A DNA stretch of 64,000 nt, from NCBI RefSeq assembly GCF_003987475.1, contig NZ_PIQH01000003.1, positions 1-64,000 on the forward strand, given 5' to 3'. Below are positions 11-47,690 of the stretch, one piece after another; within the stretch, counting starts at the first letter, position 1, and each line of letters begins with the position of its first letter. Source of the stretch: Idiomarina tyrosinivorans (GTDB taxonomy: Bacteria > Pseudomonadota > Gammaproteobacteria > Enterobacterales > Alteromonadaceae). The translations under genes and the position numbers were made by a program. Below the pieces are notes generated by a model. That model ran no database searches. It was not told where the DNA came from and saw nothing but the letters and a program-made list of their open reading frames with translations.

Positions 11-128
11 TGTCTGGCGGCCATAGCGGTGTGGCACCACCTGAATCCATTCCGAACTCAGTAGTGAAACGCACCAGCGCCGATGGTAGTGTGGGGTTTC
101 CCCATGTGAGAGTAGGACACCGCCAGAC
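11..128 (+). rRNA. rrf: 5S ribosomal RNA
   Basis: This is a complete 5S rRNA of about 118 nt. The 5' arm (TGTCTGGCGG, 11-20) is complementary to the 3' arm (CCGCCAGAC, 120-128), forming the closing helix. Between them lie the typical gammaproteobacterial segments CCGAACTCAG, GTGAAACGC and GATGGTAGTGTGGGG. It is the last gene of an rRNA operon whose 23S lies to the left of the window. A strong rho-independent terminator follows within about 12 bases, so no tRNA trails this operon copy. The exact mature ends are uncertain by a base or two. Confidence 0.97.
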
Positions 129-43588: not shown

Positions 43589-44791
43589 ATGAGTGTGTCG
43601 GTAGACGAAGCCATCGCGGAATTAACACGCGGTGCCGATGAAGTATTGCTTGAGCAAGAACTCAAAGAAAAATTGTCTGAAAACAAACCGTTAGTCGTAA
43701 AAGCTGGGTTCGATCCAACCGCACCTGATTTACACCTAGGGCACACGGTTTTGATCAATAAAATGCGAGCGTTCCAAGACTTGGGACATCGAGTAGTTTT
43801 TTTGATTGGGGATTTCACCGGCATGATCGGTGACCCAACCGGAAAAAATGCAACGCGCAAACCGCTCACCCCAGAGCAAGTGCTCGCTAACGCGGAAACC
43901 TATAAAGAGCAAGTGTTCAAGATCCTCGATCCCGAAAAGACCGAAATTCGCTTTAATTCAGAATGGATGCAAAAGCTCGGTGCAGACGGCATGATCAAAC
44001 TCGCCGCGCGCCACACCGTAGCGCGGATGCTGGAACGCGATGACTTTAAAAAGCGTTACCAGTCGAACCAACCCATCGCTATCCATGAGTTTCTCTACCC
44101 CTTAGTGCAAGGCTGGGATTCCGTGGCATTAGAAGCCGACATCGAACTCGGTGGTACCGACCAGCGCTTCAACCTGCTGATGGGACGCGAATTACAAAAA
44201 GAAGAAGGCCAACGCCCACAGACAGTCATGATGATGCCATTGTTAGAAGGCCTTGATGGCGTTCAGAAAATGTCAAAATCACTCAATAACTACATCGGTA
44301 TTACCGAGCCAGCGAACGAAATGTTCGGCAAGGTTATGTCGATTTCTGACGAATTGATGTGGCGTTACTTCGAACTGCTAAGTTTCCGCCCGTTACAGGA
44401 AATCGACGCCTTGAAGCAATCGGTGGAAGACGGTGCCAACCCACGTGATGTAAAAATTGCCTTAGCAAAAGAAATCATCGCCCGTTTCCATGACGAAGCC
44501 GCCGCCGAAGCCGCACATCAAGATTTTACCCAGCGCTTCTCTAAAAATGCGTTACCAGACGATATCCCAGAGCGAACTGTAGACAGCAAAGGCGAAGGCA
44601 TGGCGATCGGCAACTTACTCAAAGAAGCCGAACTCGTAGCCTCAACTTCAGAAGCCCTGCGAATGATCAAACAAGGTGCAGTAAAACTCGACGGCGAGAA
44701 AATCTCCGATACCCGCTGGCAGTGCCCAGCAGGAACCTCTGGCGTTCTCCAAGTCGGCAAGCGCCGCTTCGCTAAAGTGACACTAAGCTAA
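43589..44791 (+). CDS. tyrS: Tyrosyl-tRNA synthetase
   Basis: This 400-residue class I synthetase has HLGH (49-52) in [15 protein letters not shown] (227-231) and a C-terminal S4 RNA-binding domain. The overall sequence is the shorter TyrZ-like subgroup common in marine gammaproteobacteria, rather than the 424-residue E. coli form. AAAGGAGAAAG precedes the ATG. It reads into the structured gene-free region; I see no intrinsic terminator directly after its stop. Confidence 0.97.
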
Positions 44792-44903
44792 CCCGAGCAG
44801 CGGTTTACCCTATACTGCGACCGGCGGCTTATGCTCGCGGCATCGTCAGGGTTGGGATTGCTTGTTCCCTACCACGGAGTCTAGCTTGGGCGCGTCGGCA
44901 ATT

Positions 44904-45204
44904 CTTTACTGCGGCCTATGGCTGCGGCCCGCGGCATCGTTAGGGTTGGGGGAAGGCTCGGAGTGTGGGCGCTTGGGTGGTTAGTGCTCAGCGTCCCGCT
45001 GGTTCACGGTGTCTCCGGTAAAAAGACGCTCGAGCCATCCATGGCCGCTCAGTCTCTGGCCCTCCCTGGCCAGAGATGCTTTTTACCGGAGCCCCCGCGC
45101 CCCAACGATACGCTCATCAATATCGAGGAAAACACGCCCACACCCCGAGCCAAATAGGTGCGGAGAAGCGATGCCGCCCACCATCGCGGAAAGCCGCAGT
45201 AAAG
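44904..45204 (+). ncRNA. Structured module A (candidate non-coding RNA or folded DNA element)
   Basis: A nested set of perfect or near-perfect helices spans 301 bases. P1: CTTTACTGCGGC (44904-44915) with 45193-45204. P2: CGGCATCG (44932-44939) with 45169-45176. P3: 44955-44971 with 45135-45151, 16 of 17 pairs and one internal mismatch. P4: the small hairpin CAGCG-TCC-CGCTG. P5: CTCCGGTAAAAAG (45013-45025) with 45079-45091. Inside P5 lie a CCAT-CC-ATGG hairpin and a TCTCTGGCC/GGCCAGAGA hairpin. GTTCACG and GCGCCCCAACG flank P5 unpaired. A diverged copy (module B) keeps the same helices with compensatory changes. The class is not recognised. Orientation is assigned as downstream of tyrS. Confidence 0.7.
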
Positions 45205-45259
45205 AAGTACCAGCCTTTATCTATTAGCCGTTATCCACCAGCTTCAGACAGCCTGCTTG

Positions 45260-45582
45260 GGGTTGGTTGTTCTCTACCACGGCGCGCTGGGTGTGGCTTC
45301 GGCATCGCTTCTCCGTAGCCCTAAGCTTGGGGTGTAGGCGCGACTTCCCCCACATTTAACGCACAACGTTGGGGCGCGAAGCTGGGGAAAAAGTATCTCC
45401 GGCCATGGACGGCCGGAGACTAAGCGCCTCATGGATGAGCTCGAGCGGCTTTTTCCCCAGCTTCGTGAACCGGCGGGGTGCCGTGCAATGACTCTAACAA
45501 GCGCCTACACACCAAGCGCCCTCCAGCCCCTCACGATGCCGACGTACCCAAGCTAATCGCCGTGGTAGAGAGCAACCAACCC
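45260..45582 (-). ncRNA. Structured module B (inverted, diverged copy of module A)
   Basis: Read leftward, this repeats the architecture of module A over 323 bases. Terminal helix: 45260-45284 with 45558-45582 (24 of 25 pairs plus a wobble). P2: GGCATCG/CGATGCC, kept. P3: 45325-45341 with 45501-45517, one internal mismatch at the same position as in A. P4: CGGC-ACCCC-GCCG. P5: 45378-45393 with 45449-45464, 16 bp. Inside P5 are CTCAT-CC-ATGAG and TCTCCGGCC/GGCCGGAGA. GTTCACG and GCGCCCCAACG are conserved unpaired. Many helix positions differ from A, yet both strands of the helix change together. It lies downstream of the chemoreceptor gene, beyond that gene's terminator, so expression would need its own promoter. 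Confidence 0.7.
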
Positions 45583-45640
45583 TGACGATGCCGCGAGCCC
45601 AAACCCCCGGTCGCGGTAAAGAATTGGTACTTTAACGCAG

Positions 45641-45673
45641 GCACAAAAAAGCCCGCGGCTGCGGGCTTTTGTG
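45641..45673 (-). terminator. Terminator of the chemoreceptor gene
   Basis: GCCCGC-GGCT-GCGGGC (45651-45666) is flanked by A-rich sequence on the left and TTTT on the right, so it can act in both directions. Read leftward it has a run of six T. It separates the chemoreceptor gene from module B. Confidence 0.9.
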
Positions 45674-45689
45674 GTTTGGCTTGTGCGGT

Positions 45690-47690
45690 TTAGACCGTAA
45701 AGCTTTTGATCGAGTCTTGTAGTTCGTCTGCCAGTTTTGCCACTTCGTTTGATGCTTCGGCTGTTTGGCGTGAACCTGAAGCGGTTTGTTCGGCAATCGA
45801 AACAATGGCTTCCAAGCGCTCGCTGATATCTTGTGCTGTGCGGCTCTGTTCTTGTGCGGCTGATGCAATATGGTTACTGCTGTCAGCGGCTTGATGCACG
45901 GAGTCGGTAATTGACTGCAATGCTTGCGCAGCTTCGTCTGATTGGCCGACACAGAGTTCTGCTTGTTCGCGGCCTTTGTTCATTACTGTTACGGCGCGTT
46001 GCGCATCTGTTTGCAAGCTTTCAATCATTTGCTGAATTTCTTCAGTAGACTCTTGCGTCCGGCTTGCCAGTGTCCGTACTTCGTCTGCGACTACTGCGAA
46101 GCCTCGACCTTGCTCACCTGCACGGGCTGCTTCGATAGCGGCGTTCAGTGCCAGCAAGTTGGTTTGGTCGGCAATGCCACGGATAACGTCGAGGATGCCA
46201 CCGATATTGCTACTGTTCTCGTACAGTTGGTTAATAACGGTTGATGCGTTCTCAATTTCTGACGCCAAGCCTTCGATAGTTTTCTTGTTTTTGCCAGAAA
46301 TTTCACGTACGCGACTGGCTTCTTCATCAGAGTGCTGAATTTCGCGCAAGGCTTCTTGGGCGCCATTGGCCATTTCTGAAGAAGTGCTATTCATCTCTTG
46401 CGTGGCGGTGGCTACCTGTTCGATCTCATTACGCTGTTGTTCAATAGCGCTGGTGGTTTCCACTGAAACGGTGGATGACTGCTCTGCGGCTGTGGCAAGC
46501 TGCGTCGCCCGGTTAGCGATACCATTAATCAATTCACGTAGGTTGGCGGTTAACTTGTTGGTGTTGTTCGCCAGCTCACCAAATTCGTCTTTGGCGTTGT
46601 AGTTAACGCGTTCGGTAAGGTTGCCATCAGCCATGATGTTGAGCATGTGGTTAACCTTCGCTAACGGTTGGCTGATGCTGCGTACGGTAATCCAAGAAAT
46701 CACGACTGCTAAGGCGATAGAAATCAGGGTGATGATGCTATTCACCCAGCTACCGGTTGAAATCGTTGAGTCGACGTTCTGCCGTGTTTCTTCGGCAATA
46801 TTGCGCACAGCATCCTGCAATTTTTCCGCTAAGCCCATCACCACATTAAGTTGGCTTTCACTATCAACAAGCAGCTTCTGAGCATCGCGACGTGCTTTGA
46901 GACGGTTTATGACTTTATCAGGATACGAACCATCACCTTCTAGTTGTGAAATGGCATCGCGGGTCATACTAGCGGCGTCAGCCACTAGTTCTGCTGCTGT
47001 TTCACCTGATTGGTTCTCAAGCTTTGCAAGCTCGGGTTTGATACCTTCAAGGGCAATATTGATTTCACTATGGATAACGTCGGCTTTATCCAGCTTATCG
47101 GCATTACGCAGGTCGTAAAGCAAAGTGACTAGCGATGATAGCGAGGATTCTAAGTTACTTGCGGCACTTTTAACGTCCTTAGATTGTGCCGCATCCATGG
47201 TATCTAGCAATTTTACCGAAGCGTCATCAATACCAAAAGAGAGGTTATCCAGTTGATCGCTAACTTGGTTGCCTAAGCTAAGGTAGGTCGATTGTTTCGC
47301 GAACAGTTGTTCGACCAATGACATGTATTGCTCTGCTTCTTGACGGACAGCTTTGATGTTGTCTGATTGGCCTTCACCGGCAATGAGGTTTTGTAGCTGG
47401 TTAAGCGATTTATTGAGAGTGGTTTTCGACTCTTCAAACAATGCTTTGTGATGGTCTAGTTCGTCTTGTGTTTTATCGTAGAACGCTTGTAATTCGATAT
47501 TAGAGAGTTCCAGAATGTCGACTTTCACACGCGACACTTCCTCAAGGGCAGGTACTGCCTTGTCATTTAAGCGTTCTGCAGAATCGCCAATACCGTTGAT
47601 GTTAAACACTGAACTTAAGCTTATCACCAGCAGTAGCAGGGTAATGATGGCGAATCCACCAATTACTCGCATTGCAACGGTTATTTTCAT
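45690..47690 (-). CDS. Methyl-accepting chemotaxis protein
   Basis: This 666-residue chemoreceptor has a first membrane helix (about 8-28), a large helical periplasmic sensor of about 285 residues with no PAS or Cache motif that I can identify, a second helix (about 315-337), a HAMP domain (about 340-392) and a signalling domain. The signalling tip contains the near-invariant [47 protein letters not shown]. There is no C-terminal CheR-tethering pentapeptide. GAGG lies 8 nt before the ATG. No other chemotaxis genes are nearby, and the ligand is unknown. Confidence 0.96.

Follow-up and report, generated by a model that had tools for sequence, protein, structure and literature searches.

The region between positions 44900 and 45625 of the window, the 64,000-nucleotide stretch of Idiomarina tyrosinivorans DNA analysed here, is occupied by one copy of a well-supported dispersed repeat, an apparently mobile, MITE-like element composed of two diverged RNA modules, A and B, in divergent arrangement. 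The element lies between a class I tRNA synthetase gene, which, from its architecture of this class (W/Y) with an S4 domain, we take to be tyrS, and a convergent gene for a methyl-accepting chemotaxis protein (MCP). Scores in the following list refer to the covariance model R1, described below, and to the model of the Rfam family RF01731 (TwoAYGGAY).

43589–44791, + strand: flanking gene, class I tRNA synthetase (W/Y) with S4 domain
44810–44898, no strand assigned: traces of additional module ends, to the left of the element
44900–45625, no strand assigned: repeated element including both terminal inverted repeats, 726 bp, the unit common to 12 full copies in the genome
44995–45109, − strand: core of RNA module A (R1, 36.0 bits, E 5.8e-8; RF01731, 25.1 bits)
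45193–45208, − strand: internal copy of the terminal-repeat sequence that closes module A (1 mismatch)
45260–45582, no strand assigned: module B within the limits set by its own inverted repeat of 25 nt (96% complementary)
45361–45481, + strand: core of RNA module B (R1, 56.0 bits, E 8.1e-14; RF01731, 29.0 bits)
45640–45675, no strand assigned: intrinsic-terminator-like hairpin that has T-runs on both strands and separates the element from the MCP gene; it contains GGCACAAAAAAGCCCGC
45690–47690, − strand: flanking convergent gene, MCP

An earlier, sequence-only reading of this DNA had described A and B as inverted, diverged homologues whose stems pair with their own partners, and this holds: the inverted arms that it listed are present in the sequence. 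Its modular architecture is likewise real, but the bounds that it gave fall short of the repeated unit, which extends over 44900–45625, is delimited by terminal inverted repeats of the form AATTCTTTAC[CT]GCGGC and contains the inner end of A at 45193–45208. The assembly of the same genome (2.43 Mb in 21 contigs) contains 12 full copies of the element, as well as pieces at contig ends. The copies are 710–743 bp long as delimited by the end pattern of the search script, and eight other full copies, scored with a 683-base query, are 93–95% identical to the window copy. End-like sites number 43 at ≤2 mismatches and, judged by coordinates, all but four lie at known copies. To the left of the window copy, the remnants at 44810–44898 comprise a 79% copy of the left end of A and arms complementary to the right end of B. 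Contigs C2, C3, C16, C18, C19, C20 and C21 bear copies or pieces at or within ~300 bases of a contig end; the repeat thus seems to break the assembly, and its copy number may be higher than counted. The element is short and multicopy and has terminal inverted repeats, as do MITEs, and no consistent direct repeat indicative of a target-site duplication was seen in the 12 copies (3–4 nt in 3 of 12).

The insertion sites share a common setting. When the copies are oriented so that A comes first, the gene on the left is encoded on the + strand in 12/12 copies and the gene on the right on the − strand in nine of the ten copies where one was seen, as judged by a simple longest-ORF rule rather than a gene caller. 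The count of copies and inspection of their flanks that the sequence-only reading had called for gave 14 A and 15 B modules by blastn (R1 recovered the identical 29) and, under the same ORF rule, a position between convergent genes for 9/10 full copies with both neighbours visible. Around a set of 70 hits, the neighbours, again by this rule, were co-directional in 24, convergent in 21 and divergent in 5 cases, with 10 hits overlapping an ORF and 10 undecided. The 17-mer GGCACAAAAAAGCCCGC, which forms the edge of the terminator-like hairpin next to the MCP gene, recurs at 15 places with ≤1 mismatch, 12 of which adjoin, by coordinates, element copies or pieces; the hairpin itself is absent from the sites returned by a consensus terminator scan. 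When the 3′ flank of tyrS was read in 18 congeners and the fetched locus searched with R1, 17 had no module at this position and one (G006) had a pair of its own. The insertion in the window therefore probably postdates divergence from the congeners, and the tyrS flank was probably hit twice, once in the window genome and once in G006.

The two modules retain a common fold despite their divergence. R1, whose input excluded this genome, has 38 base pairs; of these, 11 are paired in both A and B with both letters changed, compared with the minimum of eight compensatory pairs that had been claimed previously. A single further pair shows a one-sided change, 18 are identical and the remaining 8 are not paired in both modules. 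On the strand of that earlier reading, A with its flanks (44800–45240) and B with its flanks (45240–45660) each beat 100/100 dinucleotide shuffles in folding, with z values of −3.92 and −8.81, respectively. Across the 29 modules of the genome, which form 16 distinct rows, two-sided changes are found in 16/38 pairs and the covariation score is 0.346 versus 0.132 for shuffles, none of 500 shuffles being as high; the number of further pair types shows the opposite trend (23 versus 25.8, with 498/500 shuffles as high). Scores of R1 within the genome range from 52.8 to 57.1 bits for B and from 23.7 to 38.3 bits for A. In aligned congener pairs, modules of two classes, alpha and beta, occupy opposite strands and are separated by a variable spacer. 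B is nearer to the congener class beta (28.5 versus 9.0 bits), and A could belong to either class (6.7 and 4.0 bits).

At the gathering threshold, the only Rfam family found in the window was 5S rRNA, the gene for which is located at the start of the window (13–128); under permissive settings, miRNA, leader and further families also matched, which we discounted as chance similarity or as generic hairpins. The RF01731 model matched B on the + strand and A on the − strand at 29.0 and 25.1 bits, the best copy in the genome reaching 29.6 bits, all below the gathering cut-off of 43 bits. The Rfam comparison proposed in the sequence-only reading thus replaces its view that the modules belong to no known RNA class with a relationship to TwoAYGGAY, and since the scores fall below the family cut-off we file the element as a relative rather than as a member. 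Over 98 genomes (own and relatives), RF01731 matched at E ≤0.1 in 39 and above the cut-off in 16, compared with 0/14 control genomes.

A DNA-level search of 59 other genomes gave no match at E ≤1e-5, so that homologues had to be sought with models of structure. Eighteen cores found via RF01731, of which 17 are from congeners and one is from another genus (G028), were combined in an alignment (A1) with two-sided change in 26/38 predicted pairs, and these 18 sequences served to build R1. At E ≤0.01, this covariance-model search of related genomes, also suggested by the sequence-only reading, detected copies in 14/19 genomes of the genus, 8 to 33 in each and 28 in the window genome, and none in G009, G010, G013, G014 and G018; the element is therefore not essential. 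At E ≤1e-4, copies were present in 38/118 sampled genomes of the family, representing 19/52 genera. On 53 RF01731-recruited loci of other genomes, R1 gave 28 matches at E ≤1, of which those in six loci (L080, L087, L103, L130, L151 and L152) were strong (≥48.9 bits), and it connects the element to above-cut-off RF01731 members in G061, G020 and G086. Most other RF01731 loci scored weakly or not at all with R1, including most of the many copies in G065, G077 and G045, so that the link rests on few genomes. Within that scope, these intermediates indicate a shared ancestry of the element and RF01731. RF01731-type repeats are also multicopy in other genera, in G077 (L093–L102) and G065 (L133–L146), where their flanks are specific to the genus; R1 mostly misses these repeats. 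An exact pattern scan of genome contigs returned 56 stretches, 54 from Idiomarina and two from Desulfuromonadales MAG contigs that score 80.5 and 64.9 bits with R1; the modules in these MAG contigs (L256:98–216 and L257:191–309) are located near one end of the stretch and may reflect transfer or mis-binning.

With homologues included, covariation far exceeds that of the controls. In 87 distinct modules from the genus, G028 and the window genome, aligned by fitting to the structure, which favours pairing, 96.1% of cells are paired versus 66.8% in shuffles, 33/38 pairs show two-sided change and the covariation score is 0.727 versus 0.187 for the control. Sliding the partners by 1–3 columns reduces the score to 0.10–0.13. 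Such covariation could also be a mutational artefact, in which template switching in quasi-palindromes copies one arm from the other, and both the high share of double transversions among two-sided changes to the nearest neighbour (183/305) and the scarcity of wobble pairs overall (85/3230 cells) would suit this mechanism. Template switching predicts no preference for G-U, however, whereas near relatives differing at ≤6, ≤10 and ≤15 positions show, on the AUGGA strand, 25, 84 and 184 one-sided changes to G-U versus 7, 17 and 21 to A-C, with 5, 22 and 44 other mismatches, in counts that leave out gapped cells and draw on non-independent sequence pairs from rows fitted to the model. Fixed asymmetries, namely the linker CAAG and the unpaired 3′ stretch of hairpin 2, also persist, and we consider an artefact of this kind very improbable.

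The same counts bear on the strand. A strand-neutral constraint, like template switching, would equalise G-U and A-C, so that the excess of G-U points to RNA, and to the AUGGA strand. The signal is weaker in sequence-only alignments, where, restricted to pairs found on both strands, G-U compared with A-C is 43 to 20 for alpha and 27 to 28 for beta; the mean difference in folding energy of sense minus antisense, −5.05 kcal/mol, is close to the −3.63 kcal/mol of shuffles, and the wobble total of the fitted alignment (85 G-U and 15 A-C of 3230 cells) leans to the model by construction. We give most weight to the near-relative counts, which depend least on fitting. Two antisense matches (L180 1501–1622 + and L198 392–513 +) were dropped from the strand, energy, pair and near-relative counts and kept, as one distinct row of 87, in the pairing and loop counts. 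Selection on the fold and base pairing of the modules is therefore well supported by sequence comparison, as had been claimed for a folded single strand, with homologues in congeners that covary strongly, whose absence would have refuted that claim, and an excess of G-U over A-C. The proposal of a folded strand holds, but the strand itself probably differs: the functional molecule is likely, rather than established, to be RNA of the AUGGA strand, complementary to the one first read (A on −, B on +), with single-stranded DNA of the AUGGA strand as a residual alternative. With the RNA most likely on the opposite strand, the modules would point outwards from the middle of the element.

The divergent arrangement recurs in many congeners. 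Among the best 150 matches in the genus, neighbouring modules <300 nt apart comprise 17 divergent, one tandem and no convergent pairs, and those at 300–1500 nt comprise seven divergent, four convergent and one tandem. Close pairs among 76 distinct modules from congener loci that were selected in part for having pairs, and from which the modules of the window genome (G000) and G028 were left out, are divergent in 26 cases and tandem in one. Outside the genus, among the 90 matches listed, neighbours within 350 nt form eight divergent, five tandem and no convergent pairs. Wider divergent pairs are ~830–990 nt apart, and several of these enclose toxin-antitoxin-like genes: L119, L126 and L167, with gaps of 833, 930 and 937 nt, contain ORFs of 86–90 and 110 amino acids between the modules, those of L119 being weakly Phd_YefM-like and ParE-like (ParE_toxin) below the Pfam cut-offs. 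A 151-amino-acid ORF enclosed in L117, without a family hit, may be HigA-like, and NCBIfam returned no family for the enclosed ORFs. These ORFs are placed as if they were cargo (L119:1186–1788, L126:1319–1921, L167:1813–2427 and L117:180–635), and some of the loci that enclose them may represent the same inherited site.

This architecture is the basis of the main rival explanation, namely that the modules serve as the two structured termini of a mobile element whose folded strand, RNA or single-stranded DNA, would be read by a mobilising enzyme through the CsrA-like loops. The nearly uniform inversion of close pairs (17/18, and 26/27 in the pair-enriched set), the terminal inverted repeats, the insertion at gene 3′ ends and the apparent cargo within wider pairs all agree with it. 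The tolerance of near relatives for G-U far above A-C is, in contrast, that expected of an RNA, and the loops vary exactly where the published CsrA consensus does. Neither of the two enzyme types searched tracks the element: as candidate mobilisers we rejected a RAYT/Y1 transposase, Y1_Tnp being found in 7/14 genomes with copies and 4/5 without, and a reverse transcriptase (5/14 with and 3/5 without; no association). A group II intron or retroelement was likewise rejected, 5S rRNA being the only Rfam family in the window at the gathering threshold and RVT_1 being absent from the genome at E ≤0.001. We regard structured ends as a real but doubtful possibility. The pairs also recall BIME/REP, in which palindromic units form inverted pairs at the ends of genes, and the associated RAYT system, from which the element differs in having modules of ~120 nt with two hairpins and no Y1 transposase that follows its distribution.

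The reading that we prefer to structured ends starts from the hairpin loops, which are located as follows, each with its closing pair.

45061–45068, − strand: loop of A hairpin 1, CAGGGAGG, fits CANGGANG
45036–45043, − strand: loop of A hairpin 2, CATGGATG, fits CANGGANG
45404–45411, + strand: loop of B hairpin 1, CATGGACG, fits CANGGANG
45430–45437, + strand: loop of B hairpin 2, CATGGATG, fits CANGGANG

All four thus agree with the core of the CsrA/RsmE consensus, reported as A/U-CANGGANG-U/A (PMC6849547). Both hairpins carry CANGGANG loops in 13/14 A and 15/15 B modules of the genome, and in the 87-module set C-ANGGAN-G is present in hairpin 1 of 84 and hairpin 2 of 85 modules, with both N positions varying. 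Outside the genus, at least two CA[N]GGANG motifs are found in 55/62 cores and one in the other 7/62, the antisense strand lacks the motif in 80/81 cores, and two motifs arise in only 4/1620 mononucleotide shuffles. The relatives were found with an Rfam model that itself contains the loops, so that the enrichment there is partly built in; the four loops of the window were not selected by that model. In TwoAYGGAY RNAs, a closing stem similarly encloses two hairpins whose loops read A-Y-GG-A-Y, a pattern that B fits (AUGGAC and AUGGAU) and that A, with AGGGAG and AUGGAU, fits in one loop, the other being only ANGGAN. TwoAYGGAY was classified in a 2010 survey as a probable RNA that is neither cis-regulatory nor a riboswitch (PMC2864571) and was proposed in 2014 to bind CsrA (PMC4333381). 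Apart from its sub-threshold score, the element differs from the family in its dispersed, multicopy, inverted-pair form and in the enclosed genes, which are absent from the accessible parts of the family accounts. A literature search, covering the accessible parts of its sources and thus not proof of absence, found no account that describes TwoAYGGAY as dispersed repeats or as inverted pairs with enclosed genes.

CsrA itself was found in 26/26 genomes searched, including 16/16 of the genus. Genomes of the genus have 1 to 3 CsrA matches, without an obvious link to the presence of the element. The CsrB model RF00018 matched 0/19 genomes of the genus and 19/60 of all genomes searched, and gave no match at E ≤0.1 in the window genome under stricter filters, in a search that could miss a diverged CsrB and in which two of 14 controls, E. 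coli and B. subtilis, matched, one of them above the cut-off. The presence of CsrA without a CsrB match leaves room for another CsrA antagonist. The modules resemble CsrB, CsrC and RsmYZ in their GGA-loop hairpins that would bind CsrA. Those RNAs are single genes with their own promoters and many GGA hairpins; the element differs from CsrB, apart from the missing RF00018 matches in the genus, in having many copies with two hairpins per module.

Transcription of the modules would depend on their surroundings. A consensus scan found no promoter-like site in the element, and visual inspection of the inter-module spacer revealed no conserved or central bidirectional promoter, so that a central bidirectional promoter was rejected and transcripts would come from neighbouring genes. 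The modules being inverted, one of them would be in sense orientation whichever neighbour reads through. Precedent for CsrA-interacting sRNAs generated in this way is provided by E. coli RrA, RrB and RrF, which derive from terminator read-through (PMC8144298) and are, unlike the dispersed repeat described here, fixed in rRNA operons. Four terminator-like sites were found in the region, compared with 1.1 expected, including one inside each module.

45052–45077, + strand: terminator-like site inside A, antisense to the RNA, which would stop read-through from tyrS
45420–45395, − strand: mirror terminator-like site inside B, antisense to the RNA

Located on the antisense strands, these sites would cut read-through before it reached the sense module, which weakens the read-through idea in this genome. 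The same two sites, together with the position between convergent genes and adjoining terminators, would be natural for an ordinary palindromic intergenic repeat of the ERIC/REP type that acts on transcription ends or mRNA stability and has no protein reading its loops. In congener alpha modules, however, no T-run follows the antisense hairpin by eye, and across the 87 modules loop and linker letters are far more constant than the stems, making an ordinary repeat of this type unlikely in our view.

Weighing these alternatives, we consider it about an even call that this is a MITE-like repeat, each module of which binds one CsrA dimer once transcribed, with expression and CsrA binding inferred from sequence. 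On transcription, each module would fold as a closed RNA with two hairpins, and its pair of CANGGANG loops could hold one CsrA dimer. Read-through from either side would present one module in binding orientation, and the copies may then act as dispersed CsrA-binding sites or as a CsrA sink. The element shares with known MITEs (ERIC, Correia/NEMIS and Coxiella QMITE2) its small size, copy number, terminal inverted repeats and intergenic location, and QMITE2 has been described as residing mainly in 3′ untranslated regions and as having given rise to sRNAs (PMC10969869). Distinct from these are its pair of diverged RNA folds, which are under selection and have loops matching a protein-binding consensus, as well as the lack of a consistent target duplication and of a detected parent transposon or transposase.

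These observations present relatives of TwoAYGGAY in a new form, as dispersed and apparently mobile inverted pairs in 14/19 genomes of the genus and 38/118 of the family. We tentatively propose, as a broader scenario that is rather less probable than its CsrA-binding core, that a mobile family in marine gammaproteobacteria spreads paired, divergent CsrA-binding RNAs into gaps between convergent genes, where the insertions would serve as read-through CsrA sinks, that the Idiomarina copies would replace CsrB and that some members would carry toxin-antitoxin-like genes. The locus allows a direct test of whether mobile repeats, as opposed to one regulated sRNA gene, titrate a global post-transcriptional regulator. 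If this proves true, a mobile repeat may spread binding sites for the master regulator CsrA.
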